Shown here: one piece after another, positions 16,716 through 48,036 of the stretch
Layout: each line of letters opens with the position of its first letter
How positions within the stretch are numbered: position 1 is the stretch's first letter
From: a virus
IMG/VR virus record: IMGVR_UViG_3300021091_000126
Span: 1-48,506 of that record
Direction: 5' to 3' (one strand)
Length of the DNA stretch: 48,506 nucleotides
Notes under the pieces: model-generated
What the model was told of the DNA's origin: nothing
Seen by the model: the letters and a program-made list of their open reading frames with translations, nothing else
Database searches by the model: none
Made by a program: the position numbers and the translations under genes

Positions 16716-16744
16716 TTGACAGACCCAGAGCATCTTGCTACAAT
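16716..16744 (+). promoter_or_regulatory. Sigma70-type early promoter P1
   Basis: A perfect TTGACA (16716-16721) is separated by 17 bp from TACAAT (16739-16744). It lies upstream of the 16854 gene, with a second promoter between them. Confidence 0.85.
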
Positions 16745-16796
16745 AACGATGTGCTCGGTTGAAGGGGCTGAGTCCCTAAGAGATTCTTAAAGGCTC

Positions 16797-16825
16797 TTGA
16801 CAACCCCTTCCATCCTTGCTATACT
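16797..16825 (+). promoter_or_regulatory. Sigma70-type early promoter P2
   Basis: TTGACA (16797-16802), 17-bp spacer, TATACT (16820-16825). The gene starts at 16854 after an AGAGGAG ribosome site, giving a leader of about 20 nt. An open frame beginning at the -35 TTG is not a plausible coding start. Confidence 0.88.
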
Positions 16826-17260: not shown

Positions 17261-17266
17261 TTTTAT

Positions 17267-17350
17267 GGGGCGGTGGTGGAATCGGTAGACACACCAGACT
17301 TAAAATCTGTTGGGCTTATGCCCGTGGGAGTTCAAGTCTCCCTCGCCCTA
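17267..17350 (+). tRNA. tRNA-Leu (anticodon UAA)
   Basis: Class II tRNA of 84 nt. Acceptor GGGGCGG pairs with TCGCCCT including G-U ends; the D-arm block GTGGAATCGGTAGACAC is the bacterial tRNA-Leu pattern; the anticodon loop is CTTAAAA (UAA); a variable arm with GGGC/GCCC is present; T arm GGGAG-TTCAAGT-CTCCC. Discriminator A at 17350, no encoded CCA. It would read UUA, abundant in this AT-rich phage. Confidence 0.93.
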
Positions 17351-17352
17351 TT

Positions 17353-17377
17353 TCCCGCTAAATACATTGTAGTGGGA
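17353..17377 (+). other. Hairpin between tRNA-Leu and the next small gene
   Basis: TCCCGCTA (17353-17360) pairs with TAGTGGGA (17370-17377) with one G-U, loop of 9. It has no T-run. It may be a tRNA 3' processing or stability element, and it places GGGA just before the ATG at 17383. Confidence 0.4.
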
Positions 17378-17382
17378 ATGTT

Positions 17383-17649
17383 ATGAAATACACATTATCA
17401 CAAGCATATTGTTTCTATATGGGACAAGTTGTGAGGATGTATTTCATCCAAGGTCTTCCATATACATTTGATGAATTACCTCAGATTATACAAGACCACC
17501 CTGCTGTACAAACAGAAGCATTAAATCATCGTGATTATGATGACGAAGATTTGTTTAAAATTTCCAATTATCTTGTAATGGAAGAAATGCATCCGCTGAT
17601 GTTTGAAGTAGAAATAGACAATCCAGAGCTACTTCCTAAAGATGACTAG
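17383..17649 (+). CDS. Hypothetical protein between two tRNAs
   Basis: The protein has 88 residues, acidic C-terminal half, with LSQAYCFYMGQVVRMYFIQG near the start and a HRDYDDEDLFKISNYLV segment. It begins 33 bp after tRNA-Leu and ends 1 bp before tRNA-Thr. No family recognised. It is bracketed by tRNAs and followed by a shared terminator, so it is probably read in one transcript with both. Confidence 0.7.
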   Translation: MKYTLSQAYCFYMGQVVRMYFIQGLPYTFDELPQIIQDHPAVQTEALNHRDYDDEDLFKISNYLVMEEMHPLMFEVEIDNPELLPKDD

Positions 17650-17650
17650 T

Positions 17651-17722
17651 GCCTGATTAGCTCAGTGGTAGAGCACTCGCCTTGTAAGCGAGCGGTCGTC
17701 AGTTCAAGTCTGACATTAGGCT
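17651..17722 (+). tRNA. tRNA-Thr (anticodon UGU)
   Basis: 72 nt cloverleaf: acceptor GCCTGAT/ATTAGGC, D arm GCTC-AGTGGTA-GAGC, anticodon stem CTCGC/GCGAG with loop CTTGTAA (UGU), T arm GTCAG-TTCAAGT-CTGAC, discriminator T. No encoded CCA. Confidence 0.93.
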
Positions 17723-17773: not shown

Positions 17774-17781
17774 TATAAATA
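17774..17781 (+). promoter_or_regulatory. Late promoter (TATAAATA)
   Basis: Exact match to the T4 late promoter consensus, one base after the terminator T-run and 43 bp before the ATG of the giant structural gene. Confidence 0.88.
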
Positions 17782-17824: not shown

Positions 17825-20800
17825 ATGCCATTAACCAAACTAGAGAATTTAATTTCCAGCAAAACTGGAAGATATCTATATGTTTCACCTGACGACTTTA
17901 ACGCTTCTGACGCTTTAGACAATAGAGGCAACTCCCCAACCCGTCCTTTCCTCACAATTCAGAGAGCATTCCTTGAAGTTGCTCGATATTCGTATGTTCC
18001 TGGTAAGGAGAATGATCGCTTTGATCAATTTACGATCATGCTATCTCCTGGTAATCACTATATTGATAACCGCCCAGGTATCATGAATCCAGAGGAGATT
18101 GTTCCTTTTGCATTCAATCAAGCTACTGACGAGTGGGAAGATGAATCCATCGTTGATCTTGGCAATCCTAATAACATTCTCTATAAGTTTAACGGTCCTA
18201 AAGGTGGTGCTACTATTCCTAGAGGCACCTCACTCGTTGGTATGGACCTTCGTAGAACTCGTCTACATCCTCTTTATGTACCAGATCCTGCTGATAAAGA
18301 TGTCGGTCGCACAACTCTTTTCAACGTAACTGGTGGATGCTATTTCTGGCAGTTTACTATTCTTGATGGTGATGTTGAGAAAAATTCACCTCTTTATGAT
18401 GTGCAAGAGGGAATTGGTAAAGTATATTCACAACCAAACTCCACTATCACCACTATTCCATATTATTCTCACCACAAAATTTGCAACTTTGAATTTGCAA
18501 GTAGAGAAGATTTGGGACTACTTTACAGAAAGATTGCTAAGGCATTCTCTCTGTTTCAACCAACTATTGATGATCCAGGTGAATTTGAGCAAAGACCTCA
18601 GGAAAACAGAATTGTTGGTCCTCTCCAGGATGCTATTCGTATCGATTCTATCGAAGTCAATAATGTCCCTGGCACTACAGCTCTCGATGTTACTGTCAAA
18701 ACAAAAACAAATCATGGTTACTATGTAGGACAAGCAATTGCCGTAGCAAATCTACGCTCAACACTTCCAGCTGGAGCAACCGAAACAATTCCTCTAGCAA
18801 ATGACCCCCTAACTGGTGTTTTTGCTGTAAGAGAAATCAGTATTTCTGATTCAAAAGAATTTACATATCGTGTAGAAGGAAAGAATGCTGCTGCCGTAGG
18901 TCTTGGTGATAGAATCGGTCAACCAATTACGCCACCTACGCTCGATACAAACGCCATTACGCAGGCAGAAGTTGATTCTGTGGAATCTGCCTCGCCATAC
19001 GTTTTCAACGTCTCTATCCGCTCTACGTGGGGTATCTGCGGCATTCACGCTGATGGTAGCAAGGCCAGTGGTTTCAAATCGATGGTTATCGCCCAGTATA
19101 CGGGTGTATCGCTACAGAGAGATGATCGTGCGTTTATTCGTTATGATGAATTTAGTAATACCTGGAATCAGGCACCTCTCACTGATGCGTTTGCTACAAC
19201 TCCCTATCACACTAAAGGTGATGCATATTGGAAGGATGATTGGAGAAACTTCCACGTTAAGGCATCGAATGACGCATTCATCCAAAACGTTTCTATCTTC
19301 GCTGTAGGTTTTGCTGACCACTTCCTCATGGAGTCTGGTGGTGACATGTCGATCACCAACTCAAACTCAAACTTTGGTAATACTTCGCTACATGCTATCG
19401 GTTACAAAGGTTATTCCTTTGCTCAAGACCAAGGCGGATATATTTCGCACATCGTTCCACCTAGAAAAGTAACTACTACAACTAAGAAGTATCAGTATTT
19501 TACTTTCAATCAAATCAAAACTAGAAATTCTAATGCTTTAGATAATAGTGGTCCATCTAATCTCGTTAGATTGTATTTGGCAAATGATGAATCTTCTGAT
19601 CCATTACAGAAACCAGCTACTACAGTTAACGGCTTTAGATTGGGCGCAAGAGCACATGAGAAAATCTATGTTAAACTAGACCCTGCTACTGGTTTTACTG
19701 GGTCGATTCGTCAAGCGGAAATCTCTCCATCTGGTTACAGAAAGTGGGATGTAGCTCTTTCTATCTTAAGTCCTAATATTGTGACTGGAGTTTCAAATAA
19801 TGACCAGGATGCGGCAAATCTTCTAGATTTAAATAGAGATTTCATTGCGGCAGAGACTTATGGATACATTACTAGAAAGTTCCCATATCTGCTAACAAGA
19901 GAAATCAGCATCAATAAGTGTAGGAGAGATGTTGGTTATATTCTTGAAGCAGTTGCAAACGATTTACGTGTTGGTGGCAATGTCAACAGCATTCAAGCAG
20001 CACAAGCATACTACACTGGCAATCAACTAGATTACATTGAGACAGAAAAAGAAGAGACCTTAGATGCATTTAACTATGCTAGAAGTCTTGCTGTTGCGGC
20101 AATGCGTAATTGGGAATTCCGAATTCAAAATTGCAGCACATTTAGTGGACAATCTACGGTAAGTGTACCAAATGGCATTACCACAATTGGTATTGTTGAA
20201 GGAATGGTAGTTACTGCTACACCAGCAACTGGTCAAACTAATCCAATTCCCGCAGGTACATATGTAGCAGAGATAGTTAGCACCACTCAATTTAAACTCG
20301 GTAATAGAAATGATACTGAGCTAGTAAATGCTTTAGCGACCATTGTTGCATCTGGTCCAACATCAGGTGGTATCACTTTAAACTTCAGTCTAAATCAAGG
20401 TAAGTTTGCATCATCTTCTGGTAGAGCATTCGATGCAGGTACTTTAATTAAGTTAAATAAAGAATTTATTGCTGAGGAAGCTCTCAATTTAGCAAAACTA
20501 CAGTATCCTGCTGTAACTGTACCAAGCAGTGATACTTGCAAGCGTGATATTAAGTTTGTCTTGGATGCACTAGTAGAAGACCTTGCTTCTACTGGTAACT
20601 CTGGAATGGTTACTGCTGCGGAGAAGTATGTTGGTGCTTCAAGTCGCTACTTCGATGCTAAAGATTTAATTCTTGCAAATAGAAGAGAAATTATTGATAA
20701 AGCATCTGCAAAACTTGCTATCGATTATCCAGATTTTTATTATGGTGGAAGTGGATTTACTAATGGTGGTGATGATAGAACTAATGTATATTCTAGATAC

Positions 20801-23800
20801 AAAGATTCTTACAGACTAATTCAGCAAAATAGAGCTGAAATTATTAATAATGCATATAATGCTCTAATTCTTAATGGTCTTCCAAATCCTCAACCAGATG
20901 ATTTAGAGAATAAGTGTAAGCGTGATATTGGTCATTTTGTAGATGCTATTTCTACAGATTTAACTACACTCGGGAATTCATACTCTATTGATTTCATTCG
21001 TCAATATTTCTTAGAAGATAAGGTAAATGGCAAGATTCTTACGTTTACTAGAAATAATGGCACTACTCTTGCTAGCAAACCAAATAGAGTTTATACTGGT
21101 GTAGCAACTACCACAACTAGTGATGGTGTGGGTGCCACATTTACAGTAACTAGAAATTCTTCTGGTGCAATTAGTGCTGTAACAATCGTAAATGGTGGAT
21201 ATAAGTATGCCTCTGGAAACACACTTAGAATTTTAGGATCTACAATTGGTGGTGTCAACGTAGCAGATGATATTGTAATCACTGTTTCTACAGCAGAGCA
21301 AGCCTGGATTCAAAACGGTCTCCAGGGAGAAGAGACACAATCAATCTTTGCATATAATGCAGCGATTGCCGAAATGAAGAAGGCAATCACCAACCAGTTA
21401 ACAGTTAAAGATCTTGGAATCACTGGAGACCCACTACCAGGATCTACACAATCTGGTGTTAGTGACTTTGGCACTCCTGGTGTTACAGATAACAACACTG
21501 ATTCTCAGTCTTGCACTAATGTGCAGCAGACGATTGATACTCTATCACAGTTAATCTTTGCTAGAATTCGTCAGGGAGATTTAGTAACTGCTACTCAGCA
21601 AAATCCAGCACTTCCTCAAATTAACTATGGTAGCGCACCTGAATTCCAAGCTAAGTGTAAGCGCGATATTGGTTACATTGTAGATGCTATCGCAGAAGAT
21701 CTAGCTTTAGGTGGAAACTCTAACATTATTAGAGCAACCAAATCCTATTTTGATAGCACTGGCAACACTCTAATTAATAATGGACTAGCAGGAGAAATTC
21801 CACAATCTATTACTGCTTTTACTGCGGCTAGAGATCTCTGTTTCAAAGCGGTTACTAATCAACTGAATGTAAGAGATTTTGAAATCTCTGAAGGACCAGC
21901 ACAACTAGGAGTAGTCGGTCCTGATATTCCAAATAATAATCCAAACTCTTGCTTGGATGTGAGAAACACTATTGATAGTTTGTTTGGTATTATCATTCAA
22001 AAATTAAACAATAGTGCATTTATTTTACCACCTCTTAGCTATAATGGTGGGGCTATCTCACTAGAGGGTGAGTTAGATATGAGTGTTTATGCTTACAAGA
22101 AAGCAAGAGATCTTGCTATTCTTGCAATGCGTAATTGGAAGACAGGTGATGGCACCTTTTCTGATCCTTCATATCAGAAGCTTCCAAACACCGTCCTGCT
22201 TCCTCAAACAGATTTAAGCATTGACACGACCACTGCTGGGGTGCCAGTCTGTGCAGATGTTGCTTATACTATAAGCACAGAATTTGATATTCTAATTGGT
22301 GCTTTGACGAATACTGCTCCTCTGCCACCAAAAACATATGGCACAGATGAGTATACTGAGAGAACTAAACCAGAAAAAGATATTAGCATTACTGTAGATA
22401 ATTCTAGCAACAAGTGTGCATCAACAAAAGATGCTATTGTTGAAAAAATGCGTGTAATCGAGAGTGTTATTCGCAATGGAATTGATGCAGAGCCACTTGT
22501 ATCGCAATTAGTTAATACTGCATCCTTTGCACAAAGAGCAACTATTTTCCGTGTTGCTGGTAACAATCCACACAATCTAGAAACTGGCACTCCAGTGAAA
22601 CTAGTCCCAGTCGCTAAGAAAGATCCATTCACTGGACAACCAGTGAATATGGATAAGCGTTTAATTAGATTACCGAAAGGTTTTGATAGTAATACTAAGT
22701 ATTATGTGATTGCTCCTGGTAAAATTACTTCGCCATTTGATTACTCTGCAGGTGGAGCAACATCACAGTTTAATGATTCGCAAACTTTCATGCTTGCCAC
22801 AAGCGTTGAAAATGCTGCTGCTGGTAACTACATTTATTCATCTGAGACTAATTCTATTGACCCAGATGTGCAGATTGAAGTCCATCAGTATATGACGGAC
22901 GTAGATTATAACCTACATCGCTATACCTGCTCTCTTGTAAGTTCGAGAGTATTCCAAACAACAACTAACCACATTTTTGATACTGCTATTAGTGGAGTTC
23001 AAGTGCAGCAAGTATTCTTCTATCCTCTGGAAGAAAATCTTGTTAATGGAGCTCCAACTGGCACTGCACTTGAGACATTACCATCTAAGACAAATGGCAA
23101 TAGATTGGAAATTAATAGAACTTATTTTGTTGGACGCCCAGCTACTTATACCTCTAACAATCAGTTTTCTATCTATCTAACCGTACAGGATGCTATTAAC
23201 AAGCAAAATGCGGTGCAGTTCAACTATCCAAGCGGTCAGTCATTCTATGTATTAGCTACTAAAAAGAGAAGTCCTCTAGGATATGACCCAGTGCAGAATG
23301 GTTGGTTCTTGAAGACTTTACTTCAGGGTAATGAAATTTATGATAGACTTACTTTATCTGATGCTTCAAGAGGAAGTCTATATGTAAATAAACCACCCCG
23401 CACTCCAGATTCTTTCTTCTATAGAGCAGATGATACCAGAAAGAAAGAGGATAAGGTTTACAAACTACGCTATGTAATTCCTAATTATAGAGACGATGTA
23501 AGAGATCCTCTCAGTGGATTTGTAATTAAGATTAGAACTGACGAAAAGAGAAAACTAGTCCCACAAAGAATTCTTCTCAAGCCAGTTTCTGCAAATGACC
23601 AGAAAGATGCAACTTTCTTTGAAGAAGGTCCATCTCCAAGAGAGCGTCTAGGTATTGCTGGTGCTAGCACACAGTATGACCCTTACAATCCCATTTTTGC
23701 CAAGAGAATTGCAGGCACCAATACTGAATCAAATGTATCATTTACGATTCAATCTGCTAAGATTGTAAATAATTACCTAGAAATGGTTGTATTTGACCAT

Positions 23801-26800
23801 GGAATTGACGTAGAATCTCTCAAGGCAGAAAGATTTGTTACTGTAAAAGTAGGACAACCTCAGGGTGGTAACGGCGAATTTATTCCTGGCACTAGAATTA
23901 CTTGGTATGGTGAGTATCAAGGAAGCGCAATTGTGCATTCTTGGTTTGGTTCTGAGCCAGTCGAAGGTGGATTGGAAGAGTTTAATTATCTAATTCTTCG
24001 TGCAGTTGAAGGACAGATTGACTTTGACGAGAAGACACAAACATTCTTCCGTCAGAGAATTGATGGACAACCAGATGTTACTGCTGAATTGCTTTCGAGA
24101 CCAAACTTCGGTAAAGAAGATAAATCAGAATATCTTTATGCTGTAGAAGCTTCTAATGTTTATACAGTAACTCCTGGTGATGTAATTACTGACGATGCTG
24201 CTAGACAATATAGAGTTGTTAGTGTGGAAGATGTTGATGATTTAAGTGAAACATACTATATTTACGATATTGAAGAAGTTCAGAGAAGAATTCCTAGACA
24301 GCAAGATGGTGTTTACTACTTAACTTGTGTAAGAGGTGATATTTCTCCATATCCTACTGGATCTGGAGTTGGTATCAACTTCAGAAACTTTAAGTTTAGT
24401 CAGCCAGTTTCTAGACTATATCCATTAACATACAAAAACGATCCACTACTATTCCAGTATGATGGTAGCGATGGACAAGGTGGAAGTCAGAATACTAACA
24501 TAGTTGACCCACCAGCATCTGTTTGTGCTGCTGACAACTATATTCATGGTTTAGTTACTATCAACGATGCCAAAAATTCTATTACCAAAGAAGCAGTTAT
24601 TGATTTTATTAAGAATCCTGGTTCTGGTCAATATGAGTTTACTGGCGTAAATCAACTAAAAGCACTTTCTGGAGCTGCATCTTCTGGTGCCGAAGAAAGA
24701 TTAATTCCTATTGCAGGTGATTCTTCATTCCCACTAGAGCAAAAACTTTATGTTGAATTGCGTAGACCATCGATTGCTCGTGCAGGTAACCACACGTTTG
24801 AATATCTAGGTTTCGGTCCTGGTAACTACTCAACTGGTTTCCCTGCTAGACAGACTGTTATCCTCAGTGCGGTAGAAGACTACTATGCACAATCTAAGAG
24901 ACAAGATGCTGGTATCGTATTCTATACTGGTATTAACTCTAATGGCGAATTGTATATCGGTAATCGTAAGATTAATGCTATTACTGGCGAGGAAGAATTC
25001 TTAGATGCTCTAATTCTCGATGAGGAAAAAGCAGAAGATGGGCAGTTTGGAAGTCTCGTTACGGTATTTGAAGATCCCGTAACATTTGAAAATATCATTA
25101 CATTAAATGCTCCTCCAAATCTAACAAACTTCTTCAATTCCCCAATTGTGGTCAATGTTGACCCAGAATTTGAAGCAATAATGACGCCTCCTTCTATCAG
25201 GATTGTTTCCCGTCCTGGTGATAGACAGGCATTACTTCCAGGTGATGATGATCCTCTACTTGATACTACAAGAGCTGGCGATATTATTCTCGACAAGAAT
25301 AGAGCAAGAGCAGCTATCTTTGACATGAATCCTAGAGGCACTCAAAGATATACTTTCAGAACCTCAGTAACTAATATAACACCAAATCAGTTCACAACTG
25401 GTCCTAAGACGCGATTTAATTCTTCACAAACTTTATCCTTTGGGTCTACTGTTCCTCTTTCTGGTGATGTCCTATTCAAGGGTGGTGAAGTTGGTTATTC
25501 TGGATCTTTAGGTTGGGTTTATGCAAACTCTTATCTGCCTTACAGATTGAATGCTCCTGCAGGTCAGGAATCTTCGATTGATATCATCGGTATTCAATTC
25601 TATCCAAATCTCAACGTCATTAAGTTAATTTTCCAAGTAGGAAAAGTTAACTTTAGCTCTTCAAATCCTGGTGCATCTTTAGGAATTACTAGGTCATCTC
25701 AAATTAAGATTACTGGTGGCATTGATAGATTCACAACTATCAATGGTGTCCACACAGTATATGATAATTCTTCGGAAGGATATGAGTATTCTGAATCTAA
25801 TGGATATGTTTATCTCTTAACAACTAGAGCATCTGAAACTACATTAACAGGTAATCCACCATATGTTTATGCTACTTCGATTATAACACAACCAACTCTG
25901 GAAATCGCAATTTCTCAGTCTCAGTGGAAAGAAGTTGGAGTTATTGGATCTGAGTCTATTCGCACAGAAACCGAAACTTACGGTGATTATAAAGTAGGTA
26001 TTAATACCCTAGCTAGAGCATTATCTACTGATTATGTTGTTTCTTACATTACCTCACAAACTACACCAAGAGCAAACTTGGATGTAGTTGGTAATGCATT
26101 TATAAGTGGCAGAAAGCAAACTAATTTCTCTGATTTACAAGGAGGAGTTCCTCTTACAACTAGACATGCCTTCATTGTCGGTGGTGACAGTGCAAATCCA
26201 GATTCTACTGCTGAATTTAGAATTGCAACTAGCACTTTATCTGAAGCTGGTCGTGTAGTAGGACCAACCGCCGATAGTGACAATGGTAGAGTAGGTATTA
26301 ATGTTTCAGATGCTGCACTTGATAGAAACTTTGTTGTTTCTGGTGATGCAAGAATAACTGGAGACTTTACATTCCAGTCTGATATTGATGTAAATGGTGG
26401 TGATATTCGCTCTACTGCTCCTACATTCAATATTGCTAATCAAAACACGACGACTTCTCTTGTATTAAGTGGATTTGCACAAAACATTGCTATTGGTAAT
26501 TCAACAACTACCACACAAAATATTGATATTGGAACTTCCGTAACAGGATCTACTACCCTTGATATTCACACCAACAGCAATAATTCGATTATTAATGTTG
26601 GAACTGTAAATAATACAGCAACATCAAATGTATCACAAATTACAATTGGTGGTGCATATGCAAATAGAGGTCAAAGCACTCTACAAGTTAAAAATTATAG
26701 AACAATTCTAGATGGTACATTAACTATCAATGGCGGTGAAATCAATACTACATCATTAAGTCAAGAATTTACATTATTCCCAACTGGTGTTACTACACTA

Positions 26801-29194
26801 AACATTGGTTTGAGTGTTGGAACACTTACATTAGGTGGTGTCGCTGGCACGACTAGAATTAGAAATGGTTTGAATGTATTGGGATCTTCATTCTTTGAAT
26901 CTGACATTACCCAAAATGGTGGATTGAAAAATAATAATTTGGGTATTGATAGAAATATCTTTGGTTTACTTAGAATTTCTACAGTTTCTAGATCTTCTAA
27001 TACCGCTACTATCGTAACATCAACTCCACATAATTTAGCCACTGGTGCTCTAGTAAAAGTTGTTTGCTCCATACCAAGTTTCAGCACTATTTCTACAGTT
27101 TCAATTACTGTGGTTGATGCAACTACATTTACATATGCAAATGTATCTCCATCTATTATTACAACTCCTGCTACTGGATCTATAATCACTACAAGTGGTC
27201 AAACCCAATCAACTGGTGATTTGGATAATTTGAATATTGATTACTTTGCAGTAATTCCTAATTTTGATGGTATTGTCAATCTACAAACAGTAGTGGCAAA
27301 TAAAATTATTGTAACTTCCTCGCATTGGTTTAGTGAAAATGATGCCGTTAAATTTATTGATGTTGGTAATTTAACGGGACTTTCTACATCAACAACATAT
27401 TATATTTTAAGTAGAGATGCAGTTGGTTTTACGTTAAAAGATTCATCCGATAATCCAGTAGTTGTATCTTTACAAACAGGATTTACTGATGCTGGAACTG
27501 CTAGAGTTCAATTGCAATCTATTGTTATTGATACTCAAGGTGATACTCCATGGGGAGATGATACTTTCAAAACAAGAGTTGTTGATGGTAATCAATATTG
27601 GTCTCTACCACTAAGCAATCCAACTGGAATTGGTATTAATCAATTGTATCTGATTGGAGTGGAAATTGTAAGGACAGTTGGATTCCCAACACCTTATGTT
27701 CCGAATAGTCCAGTTCCATACACAGTTGAAGTTGAGAGAGGACAAAGAGGAACAGCACAAGTTTCTCATCCAGATGGAGAAAGAATTTATAGATTAGTGG
27801 AGCAACAAAATGCTTCATATATCACACCAAGTCCTCTCAGTGGTACTGACACCGCTCTTAATCTCGCAGAATTCTCTGCAAATGTAACAGTTAATGATTT
27901 ACTAAGACTCAATAAGCAAAGTTTAAATGTTGGTGGTGAATATGTAAGAGTAAATCAAGTAAATCCAGCTGCCGCTCAAAGTTTCACTATCAATGATGGT
28001 AACATTGGCACTACTGCAATACCGAGAGAAGCTCAGAGAGTATTCAGAACTATTTCTACTACTGGAGACACACAGATTATTGGTGATGTTGTTATTGGTT
28101 ATGATGTAAATCAACCAAGTCTTGATGTTGAAAATACCCAAAGAGTTGCTGATGATAAAGGATATCCTTCTAGCACTTCAACTGGAAATACTTTTGAAAC
28201 TTCTGGTGGTGGTAACTTAAAAGTACATAACTCCATTGAATTGAGTGGAAATTCTACTACCACAACTCCTGGTAAACAGTATTTTGTTATTACTAATGGA
28301 AGTATTCCTAAATTCTATGTCGAATCTGCTACAGGAAACACATCTATTTACAATGGCGGAAATATTAAAATATTTAAAGACGGATTCTTTACGTCAGGAT
28401 CTTTTGATAAATCTAGAGCAGACAGTGCAAATAATTTAGCTTTTGAGGTATTGGGCGCAAGCGGAAATACTAAGATTGCAGGCACTCTTAGAGTTGGTGA
28501 TGATTTTACAGTTGGCACACTAGCGAATTCTTCTATAACAGAAGATGGATCTAATATCTTTACCTCTCGCTTCTCGGTTGATGCTCAAACTGGATCCACA
28601 GTAATCGGAAGACCTCTGATAAGTGTAAATACAGGTGCTACCCTTACTTTACATGGCACTTATACCAATAGTGCTTCTGCATCTTCTAATGTGTTGTCGA
28701 TTAATAATTTGGGTGACAACGCAGAAAAACCATTTAGAATTAGACAAGATGCTTCTATAGAAGCTTTCGGTCATGAGAATTTCTACAATAAGAATGGTGG
28801 AAGAAAGACTATCTTCATTTCTACTCAAGGAAATACAGATTCTACTGCTATTAATTTGGAAGCTAATCTACAATACTTAGTAAGACCATCATCAACTTTA
28901 GTATTGAAGTTGCCTGCAAATGCCGTGACTGGTGATACTGTTAGAATTGTTGATGTTGGGGGAGCATTGAATTTTGCGGTTAACTTAGTAATTAGAGTAC
29001 AATCTGGATCTAACACCAGAATACAAGGTAGTAGTCAAGGTAGCAGCCTTGGTGGTGCTAGCAATTTCAATGGCGGTGAATTGGTTGTCAATACACCAAA
29101 CGCAGCATTTGGTTTAATTTATGTTGGTGATACCGATTCTAACGGTAATGGAATTGCTGCAGAGCAACAAGGTTGGTATTTGATGGAGATTTAA
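17825..29194 (+). CDS. Giant virion structural protein (tail fibre/baseplate-associated)
   Basis: The protein has 3789 residues, the largest in the window, behind a perfect late promoter and a CTGAGGAAC ribosome site. The N-terminus (GRYLYVSPDDFNAS, RPFLTIQRAFLEVARYS, FDQFTIMLSPGNHYIDN) resembles the start of very long structural proteins of T4-like cyanophages and looks like a pectate-lyase-type beta-helix. Residues about 698-1530 contain four CKRDIGY-VDAI-DL helical modules alternating with C-x2-V-x3-TI modules. Residues after 2700 are beta-rich with NVGTVNN/IGIS-type repeats as in trimeric fibres. The C-terminus (GLIYVG, GWYLMEI) looks like a fibre tip. Three collar-domain adhesins follow. 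I infer a long fibre or fibre-attachment scaffold; no enzymatic motif was seen. Confidence 0.8.
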   Translation: MPLTKLENLISSKTGRYLYVSPDDFNASDALDNRGNSPTRPFLTIQRAFLEVARYSYVPGKENDRFDQFTIMLSPGNHYIDNRPGIMNPEEIVPFAFNQATDEWEDESIVDLGNPNNILYKFNGPKGGATIPRGTSLVGMDLRRTRLHPLYVPDPADKDVGRTTLFNVTGGCYFWQFTILDGDVEKNSPLYDVQEGIGKVYSQPNSTITTIPYYSHHKICNFEFASREDLGLLYRKIAKAFSLFQPTIDDPGEFEQRPQENRIVGPLQDAIRIDSIEVNNVPGTTALDVTVKTKTNHGYYVGQAIAVANLRSTLPAGATETIPLANDPLTGVFAVREISISDSKEFTYRVEGKNAAAVGLGDRIGQPITPPTLDTNAITQAEVDSVESASPYVFNVSIRSTWGICGIHADGSKASGFKSMVIAQYTGVSLQRDDRAFIRYDEFSNTWNQAPLTDAFATTPYHTKGDAYWKDDWRNFHVKASNDAFIQNVSIFAVGFADHFLMESGGDMSITNSNSNFGNTSLHAIGYKGYSFAQDQGGYISHIVPPRKVTTTTKKYQYFTFNQIKTRNSNALDNSGPSNLVRLYLANDESSDPLQKPATTVNGFRLGARAHEKIYVKLDPATGFTGSIRQAEISPSGYRKWDVALSILSPNIVTGVSNNDQDAANLLDLNRDFIAAETYGYITRKFPYLLTREISINKCRRDVGYILEAVANDLRVGGNVNSIQAAQAYYTGNQLDYIETEKEETLDAFNYARSLAVAAMRNWEFRIQNCSTFSGQSTVSVPNGITTIGIVEGMVVTATPATGQTNPIPAGTYVAEIVSTTQFKLGNRNDTELVNALATIVASGPTSGGITLNFSLNQGKFASSSGRAFDAGTLIKLNKEFIAEEALNLAKLQYPAVTVPSSDTCKRDIKFVLDALVEDLASTGNSGMVTAAEKYVGASSRYFDAKDLILANRREIIDKASAKLAIDYPDFYYGGSGFTNGGDDRTNVYSRYKDSYRLIQQNRAEIINNAYNALILNGLPNPQPDDLENKCKRDIGHFVDAISTDLTTLGNSYSIDFIRQYFLEDKVNGKILTFTRNNGTTLASKPNRVYTGVATTTTSDGVGATFTVTRNSSGAISAVTIVNGGYKYASGNTLRILGSTIGGVNVADDIVITVSTAEQAWIQNGLQGEETQSIFAYNAAIAEMKKAITNQLTVKDLGITGDPLPGSTQSGVSDFGTPGVTDNNTDSQSCTNVQQTIDTLSQLIFARIRQGDLVTATQQNPALPQINYGSAPEFQAKCKRDIGYIVDAIAEDLALGGNSNIIRATKSYFDSTGNTLINNGLAGEIPQSITAFTAARDLCFKAVTNQLNVRDFEISEGPAQLGVVGPDIPNNNPNSCLDVRNTIDSLFGIIIQKLNNSAFILPPLSYNGGAISLEGELDMSVYAYKKARDLAILAMRNWKTGDGTFSDPSYQKLPNTVLLPQTDLSIDTTTAGVPVCADVAYTISTEFDILIGALTNTAPLPPKTYGTDEYTERTKPEKDISITVDNSSNKCASTKDAIVEKMRVIESVIRNGIDAEPLVSQLVNTASFAQRATIFRVAGNNPHNLETGTPVKLVPVAKKDPFTGQPVNMDKRLIRLPKGFDSNTKYYVIAPGKITSPFDYSAGGATSQFNDSQTFMLATSVENAAAGNYIYSSETNSIDPDVQIEVHQYMTDVDYNLHRYTCSLVSSRVFQTTTNHIFDTAISGVQVQQVFFYPLEENLVNGAPTGTALETLPSKTNGNRLEINRTYFVGRPATYTSNNQFSIYLTVQDAINKQNAVQFNYPSGQSFYVLATKKRSPLGYDPVQNGWFLKTLLQGNEIYDRLTLSDASRGSLYVNKPPRTPDSFFYRADDTRKKEDKVYKLRYVIPNYRDDVRDPLSGFVIKIRTDEKRKLVPQRILLKPVSANDQKDATFFEEGPSPRERLGIAGASTQYDPYNPIFAKRIAGTNTESNVSFTIQSAKIVNNYLEMVVFDHGIDVESLKAERFVTVKVGQPQGGNGEFIPGTRITWYGEYQGSAIVHSWFGSEPVEGGLEEFNYLILRAVEGQIDFDEKTQTFFRQRIDGQPDVTAELLSRPNFGKEDKSEYLYAVEASNVYTVTPGDVITDDAARQYRVVSVEDVDDLSETYYIYDIEEVQRRIPRQQDGVYYLTCVRGDISPYPTGSGVGINFRNFKFSQPVSRLYPLTYKNDPLLFQYDGSDGQGGSQNTNIVDPPASVCAADNYIHGLVTINDAKNSITKEAVIDFIKNPGSGQYEFTGVNQLKALSGAASSGAEERLIPIAGDSSFPLEQKLYVELRRPSIARAGNHTFEYLGFGPGNYSTGFPARQTVILSAVEDYYAQSKRQDAGIVFYTGINSNGELYIGNRKINAITGEEEFLDALILDEEKAEDGQFGSLVTVFEDPVTFENIITLNAPPNLTNFFNSPIVVNVDPEFEAIMTPPSIRIVSRPGDRQALLPGDDDPLLDTTRAGDIILDKNRARAAIFDMNPRGTQRYTFRTSVTNITPNQFTTGPKTRFNSSQTLSFGSTVPLSGDVLFKGGEVGYSGSLGWVYANSYLPYRLNAPAGQESSIDIIGIQFYPNLNVIKLIFQVGKVNFSSSNPGASLGITRSSQIKITGGIDRFTTINGVHTVYDNSSEGYEYSESNGYVYLLTTRASETTLTGNPPYVYATSIITQPTLEIAISQSQWKEVGVIGSESIRTETETYGDYKVGINTLARALSTDYVVSYITSQTTPRANLDVVGNAFISGRKQTNFSDLQGGVPLTTRHAFIVGGDSANPDSTAEFRIATSTLSEAGRVVGPTADSDNGRVGINVSDAALDRNFVVSGDARITGDFTFQSDIDVNGGDIRSTAPTFNIANQNTTTSLVLSGFAQNIAIGNSTTTTQNIDIGTSVTGSTTLDIHTNSNNSIINVGTVNNTATSNVSQITIGGAYANRGQSTLQVKNYRTILDGTLTINGGEINTTSLSQEFTLFPTGVTTLNIGLSVGTLTLGGVAGTTRIRNGLNVLGSSFFESDITQNGGLKNNNLGIDRNIFGLLRISTVSRSSNTATIVTSTPHNLATGALVKVVCSIPSFSTISTVSITVVDATTFTYANVSPSIITTPATGSIITTSGQTQSTGDLDNLNIDYFAVIPNFDGIVNLQTVVANKIIVTSSHWFSENDAVKFIDVGNLTGLSTSTTYYILSRDAVGFTLKDSSDNPVVVSLQTGFTDAGTARVQLQSIVIDTQGDTPWGDDTFKTRVVDGNQYWSLPLSNPTGIGINQLYLIGVEIVRTVGFPTPYVPNSPVPYTVEVERGQRGTAQVSHPDGERIYRLVEQQNASYITPSPLSGTDTALNLAEFSANVTVNDLLRLNKQSLNVGGEYVRVNQVNPAAAQSFTINDGNIGTTAIPREAQRVFRTISTTGDTQIIGDVVIGYDVNQPSLDVENTQRVADDKGYPSSTSTGNTFETSGGGNLKVHNSIELSGNSTTTTPGKQYFVITNGSIPKFYVESATGNTSIYNGGNIKIFKDGFFTSGSFDKSRADSANNLAFEVLGASGNTKIAGTLRVGDDFTVGTLANSSITEDGSNIFTSRFSVDAQTGSTVIGRPLISVNTGATLTLHGTYTNSASASSNVLSINNLGDNAEKPFRIRQDASIEAFGHENFYNKNGGRKTIFISTQGNTDSTAINLEANLQYLVRPSSTLVLKLPANAVTGDTVRIVDVGGALNFAVNLVIRVQSGSNTRIQGSSQGSSLGGASNFNGGELVVNTPNAAFGLIYVGDTDSNGNGIAAEQQGWYLMEI
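19916..21740 (+). repeat. Four dispersed CKRDIGY-type modules in the giant protein
   Basis: Imperfect protein repeats have their Cys at residues 699 (KCRRDVGYILEAVANDLRVG), 905 (TCKRDIKFVLDALVEDL), 1031 (KCKRDIGHFVDAISTDL) and 1278 (KCKRDIGYIVDAIAEDLALG). Each is followed by G-N and a short helical, often Tyr-bearing segment. Shorter Cys modules (SCTNVQQTIDTL near 1229, SCLDVRNTIDSL near 1375, VCADVAYTI near 1475) follow or interleave. Confidence 0.75.
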
Positions 29195-36879: not shown

Positions 36880-37788
36880 ATGGAATATTCTAGTGGGTCT
36901 CATAGAAAAATATTGAATTGTTTTTCTAAAAATAATATTAAGTTAACATTTGAAAAATCATTAGATTTAAAAAACACATTAAATCAAATTATAAAGTTTT
37001 CTTCTAGTGTGCATCTACAAGAAAATAAAAAGAATTTATTTAAATATGAAGTTGTAGAATACAATTTGACAAAATCTCATCCATGTAATTTGAAAAAAAT
37101 GTATTCGTATGGATGGACGGAAATACTAGCACACAATAAAAATAGAAAGCATTTACAATCTATACAAGATTTATTATCCTTTACTGGTAGTAGTTTATTT
37201 GATATATCGGAATGTTTTTCTGATATATTTAAATATAGCAATAATGTTATTCATTCATTTGAATATAGAATTTCACCAAAAAATTTGTTAGGGGTTGATG
37301 ATAGTAATTTCAAGTATTTAATTGACACACTGAAGATGCCTTCGGTAGTCGAAGAAATACGCAACAATAATAATTCAATCTTTGATTTGTTATCAATACA
37401 TTTTAATTATCAAAATCAAATAATAGATGTTTCTTTTTTGACATCTTTGAAAAATTTGAAAAGTGATATAATCTCAGATTATTTTTTGCATTATAAAAAT
37501 TTTATTGATATATTTAATATTATTGATGATGACGGTGAAGTATCAATAACATTTTTTCCTAATTCAAAGAAATTTTCTCTCGAAATATTCCCTACAAAAG
37601 AGGAAACATTTTCATTGTTATTTCATAAACTACAGTATCTAAACATATATGACTCTAATTTTTTAGATGAATTATCAGTTGATAATTACAAAAATTTTTC
37701 TATTAAATTTTCTTGGATTAATTATCAAACTATGGAAGTAATACTATCCAAAATATATTTGAATAAAAATTGGAATGCGGGGGCTTGA
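36880..37788 (+). CDS. AT-rich orphan protein, unknown
   Basis: The protein has 302 residues, Asn/Lys/Ile/Phe-rich, and clearly more AT-rich than the early genes on its right. Segments such as VDVSFLTSLKNLK-like hydrophobic strands and many Tyr/Phe (LKKMYSYGWTEILAHN, ISITFFPNSKKFSLEIFP-like) give no recognisable family. It begins 9 bp after the previous stop. Its TGA stop (37786-37788) lies inside the TTGACA -35 box of the next promoter, in the loop of a terminator hairpin. It is the last gene of the late unit. A shorter start is possible. Confidence 0.6.
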   Translation: MEYSSGSHRKILNCFSKNNIKLTFEKSLDLKNTLNQIIKFSSSVHLQENKKNLFKYEVVEYNLTKSHPCNLKKMYSYGWTEILAHNKNRKHLQSIQDLLSFTGSSLFDISECFSDIFKYSNNVIHSFEYRISPKNLLGVDDSNFKYLIDTLKMPSVVEEIRNNNNSIFDLLSIHFNYQNQIIDVSFLTSLKNLKSDIISDYFLHYKNFIDIFNIIDDDGEVSITFFPNSKKFSLEIFPTKEETFSLLFHKLQYLNIYDSNFLDELSVDNYKNFSIKFSWINYQTMEVILSKIYLNKNWNAGA

Positions 37789-37803
37789 CACGCCCCCTTT
37801 TTT
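37779..37803 (+). terminator. Rho-independent terminator with -35 box in its loop
   Basis: GGGGGC (37779-37784) pairs with GCCCCC (37792-37797), loop TTGACAC, then six T. It ends the late unit and contains the preceding stop codon and the next promoter's -35 element. Confidence 0.9.
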
Positions 37804-37813
37804 CCTATATAGT
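37785..37813 (+). promoter_or_regulatory. Sigma70-type early promoter embedded in terminator
   Basis: TTGACA (37785-37790), 17-bp spacer that includes half the terminator stem and its T-run, then TATAGT (37808-37813). It would drive the early block from 37835 to about 42651. Confidence 0.85.
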
Positions 37814-37834: not shown

Positions 37835-37960
37835 ATGACCACGCCCAACTGGCAGCACCATTCTAAGAAGGAAGCCAAACGCACCCTGAAACCTCAGGCG
37901 ATGCGTCAAGCGAAGGCGCGTAAGCAGGCACTCAAGCGTAAACTGGAGGTAATTCAATGA
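37835..37960 (+). CDS. Tiny basic early protein
   Basis: The protein has 41 residues, extremely basic (KKEAKRTLKPQAMRQAKARK), probably one amphipathic nucleic-acid-binding helix. I chose ATG 37835 because any longer frame would begin upstream of the promoter's start point. It overlaps the next start by 4 bp (ATGA). First gene of the block; its ribosome site (AGGAAA at 37817) is rather far away. Confidence 0.65.
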   Translation: MTTPNWQHHSKKEAKRTLKPQAMRQAKARKQALKRKLEVIQ

Positions 37961-38345: not shown

Positions 38346-38535
38346 AGCAGCATTATATGAAGTGCCAGTCAAAACAACCCCAGAGAATGTCAAAGAGGCA
38401 AACGAAGGGTTGTTTAACTGCACTATGACACTTCCTGCTGCCGCTAAACATTGTGGCATGACACAGAAAGAAATGAAACTGACATTCTTTGAGTATCTGA
38501 AGTATCACCCTCTCACATATAATCAAAATTCATGA
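38323..38535 (+). CDS. Small conserved early protein with helix-turn-helix-like segment
   Basis: The protein has 70 residues. TMTLPAAAKHCGMTQKEMKL followed by TFFEYLKYHP resembles a short helix-turn-helix in which a glycine sits at the turn; this pattern occurs in small cyanophage proteins. It starts inside the previous gene and ends in an ATGA overlap with the halogenase gene. DNA binding is an inference from the segment only. Confidence 0.65.
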   Translation: MSLLKINKAALYEVPVKTTPENVKEANEGLFNCTMTLPAAAKHCGMTQKEMKLTFFEYLKYHPLTYNQNS

Positions 38536-39719
38536 AAGTAGCTATAGTTGGTAAAGGCACATCTGCGATTATTACAGCACTTAGATTGATATCGGAGGGA
38601 CACTCTCCAACTATATTTTATGATCCTAATATTCCACATCTTAAAGTTGGTGAGTCTACCACAGTTGGAATAGGTAAACTAATTAATAAAGTGTTGAAAA
38701 TCAACACAGCTGAATTGTGTGAAAGAGGAATTTGCTCATTGAAAACAGGAGTAAAATTTATTAATTGGGGGGTTGGCAAAGAGTTTTACAGTAACTTTGA
38801 GCATCATATTGCATTTCAATTCGATACTATTAAATTCAACTCATTTATAAATGATGAATTAGAAAAAAGAAAGTTAGTAGAGTATATTCCAGAAAGAGTT
38901 GATTCACATGAAGTAATCAATAACCAATACATTGTAGTTAACAATAGACAATTTAATTTTATCATTTATTGCACTGGATGGTCGGAAGAAGATGAATACT
39001 ATCCTGTCTATTTGAATACAGTTAATTCGGCAGTTTTATATACACAAAACAGTCTAGACGTAGATGCCACATATACTATTCATAGAGCTACTGAAGACGG
39101 GTGGCAGTTTGGATTACCATTTCCAAAAGAAAATAAAACAAAATGTGGATATCTTTATGATAGAAATTTAATTACTAAAGAAGAAGTAATTAAAAAGTTA
39201 GAGGGGTATGAAATCAATGGTCAAATTGATTGGACTCCTAAGTATTCTAAAAAATTAATTATCAACAAGTTTTGTGCTTACAATGGCAATCGATTATTTT
39301 TTCATGAGCCATTACAAGCACTGACTTTACATTATTATGACTATGCAGCGGAATTAATTACTGACTACTTAAAAAGGGGAAATGTAACTTCATATATTGA
39401 ATGTAATCATCTATATCGGAAAGAATTTTGGACATATCAACTTTCTTTGGCAATGCATTATAGGTTTGGGTCTATCTATGATACTGACTACTGGACAAGA
39501 GTGAAAAAAGATGCTAATATCTTATTGCAGTCTCATTCTCTAGGACGAGAAGAAACTTACGAAAATGCCATTATGACAGATTATTTTCATAATAGAAATT
39601 ATTCGCAAATTGGTATATTCGAACATATTGCTGGGCGAGACATTTATTATGGTTTATCTGGGAAAAACTTTAATGAGTGTAAACAAAAATATATTGATGA
39701 ATGGGAATGTTTCAGGTAA
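38532..39719 (+). CDS. Flavin-dependent halogenase-like enzyme (VirX1 type)
   Basis: The protein has 395 residues, shorter than tryptophan 7-halogenase PrnA (about 538). The N-terminal GKGTSA dinucleotide-binding loop (residues 7-12) and LKVGESTTVGIG (about 37-48) match the FAD site of the Trp_halogenase family. GVKFINWG places K75 where PrnA has its catalytic Lys79. The W-x-W-x-I-P motif appears as WQFGLP (191-196), with Phe for the second Trp. HEPLQAL (E259) corresponds to the conserved D/EPLES region. A related enzyme, VirX1 from cyanophage Syn10, is a published halogenase with iodinating activity (established knowledge). It needs reduced FAD, oxygen and halide; no flavin reductase is nearby. 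It is embedded in an early operon, suggesting modification of a host metabolite or protein. Confidence 0.82.
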   Translation: MKVAIVGKGTSAIITALRLISEGHSPTIFYDPNIPHLKVGESTTVGIGKLINKVLKINTAELCERGICSLKTGVKFINWGVGKEFYSNFEHHIAFQFDTIKFNSFINDELEKRKLVEYIPERVDSHEVINNQYIVVNNRQFNFIIYCTGWSEEDEYYPVYLNTVNSAVLYTQNSLDVDATYTIHRATEDGWQFGLPFPKENKTKCGYLYDRNLITKEEVIKKLEGYEINGQIDWTPKYSKKLIINKFCAYNGNRLFFHEPLQALTLHYYDYAAELITDYLKRGNVTSYIECNHLYRKEFWTYQLSLAMHYRFGSIYDTDYWTRVKKDANILLQSHSLGREETYENAIMTDYFHNRNYSQIGIFEHIAGRDIYYGLSGKNFNECKQKYIDEWECFR

Positions 39720-42662: not shown

Positions 42663-42672
42663 GAAACACCGC

Positions 42673-42701
42673 TTGACACCACCGTTGAGCGGTGCTATAT
42701 T
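42673..42701 (+). promoter_or_regulatory. Sigma70-type early promoter with overlapping hairpin
   Basis: TTGACA (42673-42678), 17-bp spacer, TATATT (42696-42701). CACCGCT (42667-42673) can pair with AGCGGTG (42688-42694) so the -35 element lies mostly in the hairpin loop, as in the two other early promoters, but no T-run follows. Confidence 0.82.
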
Positions 42702-46858: not shown

Positions 46859-47036
46859 TGAAGATTCACTCAAAGTGAATGAGAATGAAGATGGCACACT
46901 TGCTATCGAATGGGATCCAAATGACCCAAGATATTCTCATTTCAATACAATGACAGAGGAAGAACTTAATGATTACCTAACCAAAGCGTTGGAAGAATTC
47001 ATTAAAAAAGACGAGGAAACGTGTAATGCAGAGTAA
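46845..47036 (+). CDS. Small acidic early protein
   Basis: The protein has 63 residues, strongly acidic (SLKVNENEDGTLAIEWDPND, EEELNDYLTKALEEFIKKDE), behind a good GGGGAG ribosome site. The EWDPNDP-type motif recurs in small cyanophage proteins. Function unknown. Overlaps the next gene by 11 bp. Confidence 0.7.
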   Translation: MTYTSEDSLKVNENEDGTLAIEWDPNDPRYSHFNTMTEEELNDYLTKALEEFIKKDEETCNAE

Positions 47037-47331
47037 TGTACACGACATCAAGTATCGTGCTCAATACACTGATATTGAGATGGATGCCATGACACACAAA
47101 GCCGAAGCAGATTCTTGGCGTAAAAACTTTGAAGAGTTGAAAATTAAGTATGAAGAGTTGCAAAACATCTATGTAGAGACAGATGATGAATTAAATTACT
47201 ATCGCAATAAGTTTATTGACGAGTCTTTACAACGTGGTTATCTATTGAATGATTACGATTATCTTAAAGAAGAAATGCGAGAGCTGAAGGCGCGGGTCGC
47301 CAGTTTGGAATTTCTTGCTGACAGGGGTTGA
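47026..47331 (+). CDS. Coiled-coil early protein
   Basis: The protein has 101 residues, almost entirely helical with coiled-coil character (RKNFEELKIKYEELQNIYVE, YLKEEMRELKARVASLEFLA). It starts behind GAGG. Its TGA stop (47329-47331) lies inside the TTGACA -35 box of the next promoter, in the loop of a terminator hairpin, the same arrangement as at 37788. Confidence 0.72.
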   Translation: MQSNVHDIKYRAQYTDIEMDAMTHKAEADSWRKNFEELKIKYEELQNIYVETDDELNYYRNKFIDESLQRGYLLNDYDYLKEEMRELKARVASLEFLADRG

Positions 47332-47346
47332 CACCCCTCTTTTTTT
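47323..47346 (+). terminator. Rho-independent terminator whose loop is the -35 box
   Basis: AGGGG (47323-47327) pairs with CCCCT (47334-47338); the 6-nt loop is exactly TTGACA. A T-rich run follows (CTTTTTTT). Confidence 0.88.
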
Positions 47347-47356
47347 GTGCTACAGT
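47328..47356 (+). promoter_or_regulatory. Sigma70-type early promoter embedded in terminator
   Basis: TTGACA (47328-47333), 17-bp spacer containing the terminator's 3' arm and T-run, TACAGT (47351-47356). It drives the 47380 gene and the methyltransferase. Confidence 0.85.
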
Positions 47357-47379: not shown

Positions 47380-48036
47380 ATGTCTACCGAGATTATGTCT
47401 TCCAAGATTGCTTCTGATTATTATCAGATAATTCCAGTTGCTTTAAATCATCTTACCGCAGCACTTAATCGTGGTTTAAATGAATTAACGTTTGGACATG
47501 GTGCAGACCTTGATAGTCTTGGTCTCGATACCGTTACAAAAACAAAATTGATTGCTTTGTTTCTTCCATTTGCGATGCAGAAAGCAGCAAAAGAAGTTGG
47601 CGTTGCATACAAATATGTTAATGCTAATGGTTATGATGTAGAAATGGATGACAATGGTGTTGTTACTATTGAGGAGAAAGCATCTTTGATGCAAGATGCT
47701 GCCTCACTTGCCACAGGTAACAATCACAGTAAAGTCAAAAATCATCTGCACTTTGTTATGAAATTGCAGAATGTTGGTAACGTTTTCTGCTCGTGTTTTG
47801 CTGCTCTTGTTAATGTGCCCGCGCTTGAGCATGAAAAATCTGGGTGGTCTGATAGTGTTACCAAGAGTGGCAAAAATAATAATGGATTCTCTAAGCTTCC
47901 TGTGCATATCAGCGATGCTAAGCATGTAGAAGTAATTTATGGTGATATAAGGACAGTCAATTACACTAAGACTGGTAAAGTCAGCAAGAAACAACTCACT
48001 TATTGTCAGACAGAATATGAAACTCTCGCCCAATGA
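47380..48036 (+). CDS. Hypothetical early protein
   Basis: The protein has 218 residues from ATG 47380; an in-frame TTG at 47374 is less likely. The leader from the promoter is about 17 nt and shows no Shine-Dalgarno. A helical N-terminal half (PVALNHLTAALNRGLNELTF, LIALFLPFAMQKAAKEVGVA), then GNNHSKVKNHLHFVMKLQNV, a CSCFAALVNVPALEHEK segment and a basic C-terminus. No family recognised. It overlaps the methyltransferase start by 20 bp, so the two are probably co-translated. Confidence 0.72.
   Translation: MSTEIMSSKIASDYYQIIPVALNHLTAALNRGLNELTFGHGADLDSLGLDTVTKTKLIALFLPFAMQKAAKEVGVAYKYVNANGYDVEMDDNGVVTIEEKASLMQDAASLATGNNHSKVKNHLHFVMKLQNVGNVFCSCFAALVNVPALEHEKSGWSDSVTKSGKNNNGFSKLPVHISDAKHVEVIYGDIRTVNYTKTGKVSKKQLTYCQTEYETLAQ

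Follow-up and report, generated by a model that had tools for sequence, protein, structure and literature searches.

A predicted nested terminator-promoter element in cyanophages, a probable variant of the PeSL cassette of T4-like phages

In T4-like phages, PeSLs (promoter-early stem-loops) are reportedly repeated within the genome and lie at the junctions of exchanged modules. According to the S-PM2 PLoS One paper (PMC4503421), which refers to Arbiol et al. 2010 and Comeau et al. 2014, a PeSL of T4-like phages consists of a stem-loop terminator and a strong early promoter, and such cassettes are held to mediate module shuffling; for S-PM2 itself that paper gives a promoter and stem loops separately and describes PeSLs as sparse. 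The early promoters of the cyanomyoviruses S-PM2 and Syn9 carry host sigma70-like -35 and -10 elements before early genes, and the review of these promoters makes no mention of terminators, stem-loops or hairpins (PMC2984593). In a Kayvirus, the early promoter p98 comes immediately after the terminator t97, with support from RNA-seq (PMC7698491).

In this work we have analysed the virus record IMGVR_UViG_3300021091_000126, a stretch of 48.5 kb which as a whole is called the window below. Its T4-like affiliation is based on its proteins, which are closest to those of cyanophages (S-PM2, S-CREM1, S-WAM2) in a comparison with eight cyanophage isolates, T4, RB49 and KVP40. The window holds two copies of an element in which a predicted promoter and a predicted terminator are nested in one another. 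As in a PeSL, there is a sigma70-type early promoter (TTGACA-17-TATAGT, predicted, with 11 of 12 consensus matches), a stem-loop with the features of a terminator (six G-C pairs, -12.0 kcal/mol and a T6 tract) and a presence in several copies per T4-like phage, here two in the window and one to three in each of six isolates. The same host-type -35 and -10 stand before the early genes of cyanomyoviruses. Kayvirus p98/t97 likewise brings a terminator and an early promoter together at a unit boundary, but there the two are adjacent rather than nested, and the phage group is an unrelated one. Provisionally, we class the element with the PeSL cassettes, as a variant whose geometry is nested, the novelty of the nesting being judged against PeSLs as a later paper cites them.

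Anatomy of the two copies in the window

The sequence-only reading had described the first copy as a terminator hairpin with the -35 hexamer in its loop, a -10 hexamer exactly 17 bp away and the T-run within the spacer, the TGA of TTGACA being also the stop codon of the upstream gene. All parts of GGGGGC-TTGACAC-GCCCCC-T6 are indeed present at 37779-37803, the -10 hexamer lies where it was placed and the upstream ORF ends as described:

36880-37788, + strand: upstream ORF of 302 aa, whose last codons enter the stem and whose TGA lies in the -35 hexamer (ORF list)
37779-37784, + strand: GGGGGC, 5' stem arm (read from the sequence)
37779-37797, + strand: predicted terminator hairpin GGGGGC-TTGACAC-GCCCCC with six G-C pairs, -12.0 kcal/mol (sequence and folding)
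37785-37790, + strand: TTGACA, -35 hexamer within the hairpin loop (read from the sequence)
37786-37788, + strand: TGA stop of ORF 36880-37788, inside TTGACA (ORF list)
37791, + strand: C closing the loop TTGACAC (read from the sequence)
37792-37797, + strand: GCCCCC, 3' stem arm (read from the sequence)
37798-37803, + strand: T6 tract immediately 3' of the stem, putative terminator tail and part of the promoter spacer
37808-37813, + strand: TATAGT, -10 hexamer 17 bp from the -35 (promoter scan), with a predicted transcription start at about 37820
37835-37960, + strand: first downstream gene, 41 aa, phrog_3309 (profile match), found in many cyanophages beside differing neighbours
38532-39719: tryptophan-halogenase-like gene in the small-gene block (PF04820, phrog_2928)

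The hairpin string of the first copy occurs once on the + strand, with an expectation of 0 from 100 shuffles, and the 51 nt around it fold with -17 kcal/mol (z -2.2). Within 30-48.5 kb of the window it is the second-listed terminator-like site, and its promoter is among the three best of 94 promoter-like sites. The upstream ORF has no PHROG or Pfam match. A single relative was found for this gene (L444), and, being identical over 6.9 kb, it adds nothing to the comparison. The earlier wording of a "first copy" was borne out by a second at 47323-47356, with the same loop, the same 17-bp spacing and again a shared TGA:

47026-47331, + strand: ORF of 101 aa before the second copy, its stop being again the TGA of TTGACA (ORF list)
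47323-47338, + strand: hairpin AGGGG-TTGACA-CCCCT (AGGGGTTGACACCCCT), followed by C and T7 (47340-47346) (sequence and terminator scan)
47328-47356, + strand: predicted promoter with TTGACA (47328-47333), 17 bp, TACAGT (47351-47356) and an extended -10 TG (47348-47349) (promoter scan)
47380-48036, + strand: phrog_11812 gene behind the second copy, with a gene for an N6/N4 DNA methylase after it (profile match)

For the nested architecture as a whole the window scored 2, whereas nine of ten dinucleotide shuffles scored 0 and the remaining one scored 1.

Recurrence in cultured phages and viral contigs

A scan of other cyanophage genomes for TTGACA-loop hairpins followed by a T-run and a -10 at 17 bp had been proposed from the sequence alone. 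One uniform scan for the nested form returned 13 copies in six of the eight cyanophage isolates (S-PM2 one, S-CREM1 three, P-SSM2 two, S-RIM4 two, S-SM2 three, among them one at 167151, and S-WAM2 two), while shuffled isolate genomes mostly gave none. The same scan found no nested form in Syn9, S-CRM01, RB49 or KVP40 and one weak match in T4; RB49, KVP40 and T4 were rejected as carriers, since shuffles give numbers similar to their 0, 0 and 1. Nesting is not obligatory even in cyanophages, because Syn9 and S-CRM01 are without a nested copy and the promoter-like site before the phrog_11812 gene of Syn9 is without a T-run. In S-PM2 and S-SM2, hli03 lies directly 3' of a nested copy. As two isolate copies thus directly precede high-light-inducible (hli) genes, the element may help to control host-derived photosynthesis genes during infection.

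RB49 and T4 place the two signals differently. In RB49, 12 terminators are followed by a promoter-like site, 11 of these being strong, with the -35 past the stem by 12-20 nt (8 cases) or 30-32 nt (4 cases), and T4 has six weaker promoter-like sites whose -35 lies 2-32 nt past the terminator stem. The promoter in these phages comes in tandem after the terminator, whereas in the cyanophages the loop of the terminator itself supplies the -35, and the promoter spacer takes in the T-run. The window element lacks the tandem layout, which is a trait of the RB49 and T4 examples examined and is not known to us as part of the definition of a PeSL; some cyanophage terminators also precede tandem promoter-like sites. 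Another arrangement was seen in RB49 (NC_005066, 115005-115033 and 121708-121736), where consensus promoters contain an inverted repeat inside the 17-bp spacer and have no T-run. Similar spacer repeats occur in Syn9 (NC_008296, 18628-18656) and S-RIM4 (MK493321, 123862-123890 and 170708-170736), an example from these three phages being TTGACAGGGGGTCACCGATCCCCTATAAT. The hexamer GTGCCA occurs about 107-161 times per 100 kb in the Syn9 and S-RIM4 genomes (L152-L160, L190-L198) and in the window, and 21-26 times in T4 and RB49; GTGCCA/AACTGG was rejected as an upstream co-motif, not being consistently linked to the nested element.

Is the nesting more than a coincidence of two common signals? The pattern GGGGN-TTGACA-NNCCCCTTTT gave at least 120 matches in viral contigs, and none were found there when the loop was reversed. 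The one-base loop variant TTGACT gave 32 matches, and 17 of its 22 unique sites have a -10 at the 17-bp distance. The reverse-complement loop TGTCAA gave 17, several of which read TTGTCA with an in-phase TATAAT, and this intended control therefore partly holds TTGTCA promoters of the same element. Among the TTGACA matches listed, a -10-like hexamer stood at exactly 17 bp in 51 of 74 unique sites, 33 of these 51 having a TG ahead of it (extended -10). Only 18 matches to the pattern came from 84,980 cellular genomes comprising 257 billion bases, and on this rarity a cellular origin was rejected. The stem was also left out of the search altogether. When TTGACA and TATAAT were sought with a T6 tract in the spacer and with unconstrained flanks, 115 unique sites were obtained that are independent of the first scan, and in 35 of them the -35 is enclosed by a stem with four or more G-C pairs; when left and right flanks were re-paired in 500 trials, the mean was 3.6 and the maximum 10. 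The positive sites have 27 distinct stems (for example GAGAGGG/CCCTCTC, AGGTC/GACCT and GCACC/GGTGC). The stem sequence thus varies while its pairing is kept, which fits an RNA hairpin, unlike a protein operator. Cyanophage-like contigs held 111 of the 120 sites listed from the first scan and, in the stem-blind scan, 32 of the 35 stem-positive against 41 of 77 stem-negative sites, where contigs were assigned by their best protein match to T4-like references only, so that non-cyanophages nearest to cyanophages count as cyanophage-like. The nested arrangement of the two predicted signals is a recurring element, and the loop controls and shuffles rule out a chance overlap.

The sharing of the stop codon has a different standing. 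It was observed in two of the 13 isolate copies and, among the metagenomic matches listed, in 8 of 78 unique sites, four of these eight coming from one related family. According to independent annotation, p171 of S-PM2 ends at 124312, inside TTGACT (124309-124314), and RW110999_203 of S-RIM4 at 158276, inside TTGACA (158273-158278). At the metagenomic sites the upstream gene mostly stops 12-20 nt ahead of the -35 or at a greater distance. Since most of these stops fall upstream of the stem, a shared stop was rejected as a defining feature. Compactness has probably produced it as a side effect, because one of the three frames of TTGACA reads TGA and the G-rich 5' arm offers no stop; a gene entering the cassette in the TGA frame would end there. 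The proposal that some 35 bp end translation and transcription and start the next unit therefore needs to be divided. Its combination of a terminator with a sigma70 promoter is supported by the comparison, because the loop hexamer is held through changes of the stem, the 17-bp distance to the -10 is kept and the element recurs at orthologous and non-orthologous places, and it remains a prediction from these patterns; the part played by the stop codon is optional.

Gene neighbourhood and ends of homology

On the 5' side of the first copy lie baseplate, tail, short tail fibre and tail-assembly chaperone genes, and a T4-type late promoter motif, TATAAATA, as described for cyanophages (PMC2984593), is present at window position 17774. 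On the 3' side follows a block of small ORFs which includes the tryptophan-halogenase-like gene. With tail and tail-fibre genes before it and a small-gene block after it, the first copy can fairly be taken, by analogy with T4-like phages, as a late-to-early gene boundary, and the earlier suggestion that a late unit gives way here to an early one fits this arrangement. The 41-aa phrog_3309 family (members in the window and at L130, L131 and L132) is found next to gp32 in S-RIM4, next to gp46 in S-SM2, and in S-WAM2 beside a tRNA and small hypothetical genes. No conserved element was found to precede all phrog_3309 genes, as the upstream regions differ; in S-PM2 this region contains TTGACA-17-TATGAT within a hairpin whose loop is long.

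The phrog_11812 locus offers a comparison of orthologous sites. The S-RIM4 counterpart of this gene is 51 percent identical, is also followed by the methylase and has a nested element on its 5' side, with the stem GGAGGGG/CCCCTCC, which is unlike that of the window. Among further relatives, L436 and L437 have AGGGGGG-TTGACA-GACCCCC-T6, and in L438, L441 and L442 the loop that contains TTGACA closes a longer stem; a nested element is absent from this locus in L439, L440 and L443, and Syn9 has kept a TTGACT promoter-like site with no T-run. Where the element is present (the window, S-RIM4, L436-L438, L441 and L442), TTGACA and the phasing are constant and the stems differ. From this locus it appears that the terminator part can be gained or lost and the promoter still be retained.

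Do the elements also mark the edges of exchanged segments? Among 192 pairs of sites with similar cores, homology was one-sided in 57 and absent on both sides in 51, figures in which the choice of pairs partly forces a break at the element. A first measurement of break positions was discarded as partly circular and replaced by plain alignments of the 3-kb surroundings. In these, 29 left ends of homologous stretches fell in the 50 nt before the -35, and no other 50-nt bin held more than 6; the right ends show no peak at the element and cluster 200-250 nt downstream. Breaks at the 5' edge are what PeSL module shuffling predicts, and the peak may thus reflect module exchange at that edge, which it fits, although gene swaps at any intergenic site break homology too.

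Possible function and alternative readings

Promoter activity, termination, timing and recombination are properties that we infer for the nested element from sequence comparison. We think it very probable that terminator and promoter are nested here in one cassette, a PeSL variant, which separates late and early blocks and makes them exchangeable. According to this model, RNA polymerase arriving from the tail-gene side would transcribe the GC hairpin and U-tract and terminate at about 37803, while the host sigma70 polymerase would read the same duplex DNA as a strong promoter, with TTGACA, a 17-bp spacer composed of the 3' stem arm and the T-tract, and TATAGT. Initiation would occur beyond the hairpin, at about 37820, and the new RNA would therefore be free of the terminator. 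Could one stretch serve both purposes? The earlier view that the hairpin and the -35 can coexist seems sound in principle, because initiation uses duplex DNA and would start beyond the hairpin; it does not extend to the same instant, since a polymerase at the T-tract would cover the promoter. The cassette would part the late gene block from the early small-gene block, and either could be exchanged because each would bring or meet its own stop and start signal. It is also conceivable, though we consider it unlikely, that a polymerase terminated on the T-tract, and so positioned over the spacer, is recaptured by a sigma factor and restarts the downstream unit. If this were true, such re-initiation would let traffic on the upstream unit feed the downstream promoter instead of blocking it.

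The most serious objection concerns only the role in module exchange. Both signals may be active and their overlap may reflect nothing but genome compaction, with no selection for nesting or shuffling. Phage genomes are compact, stops are shared in a minority of cases and some relatives retain the promoter without the terminator, all of which would suit such an origin; RB49 and T4, however, are compact as well and yet have the tandem order with the -35 past the stem, and the ends of homology peak at the element. We regard compaction alone as possible but doubtful. A promoter with no terminator at all would require the GC palindrome to be an operator or a cruciform that binds a protein or tunes the polymerase, the T-run being an incidental part of an AT-rich spacer. 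Some related promoters do have hairpins without T-runs (window 42667-42694 and the spacer hairpins of RB49, Syn9 and S-RIM4), but an operator would be expected to conserve its arms, which instead come as 27 distinct stems with the pairing kept, and the T-run stands directly 3' of the stem as a terminator needs; we find this reading improbable. That the element is a terminator whose loop reads TTGACA by accident, with a chance -10, is barely credible: the hairpin and T6 are good terminator features by themselves, but the choice of loop is highly non-random (at least 120 matches versus 0 for the reversed loop) and the -10 recurs in phase at 17 bp.

As a nested cassette, the element would provide a simple, searchable marker of transcription-unit boundaries in cyanophage genomes, uncultured ones included, for which maps of promoters and terminators are poor, and may also flag points of module exchange. 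Since its termination site would sit right on a promoter, it would be a clean natural test of the interplay between termination, promoter occlusion and polymerase recycling.

Some further features of the window were noticed. At 42667-42701 there is a promoter-like site, TTGACA-17-TATATT with an extended -10, whose -35 belongs to the 5' arm of a hairpin of 11 bp that has no T-run; the site is possibly a relative which lost or never had the terminator tail. Two consensus promoters lie 81 bp apart at 16716-16825, 3' of a baseplate-hub-like gene (TTGACA-17-TACAAT and TTGACA-17-TATACT, both with the extended -10 TG). An ORF of 3789 aa (17825-29194) has two tRNA genes (17266-17722) on one side and the tail-fibre genes on the other.
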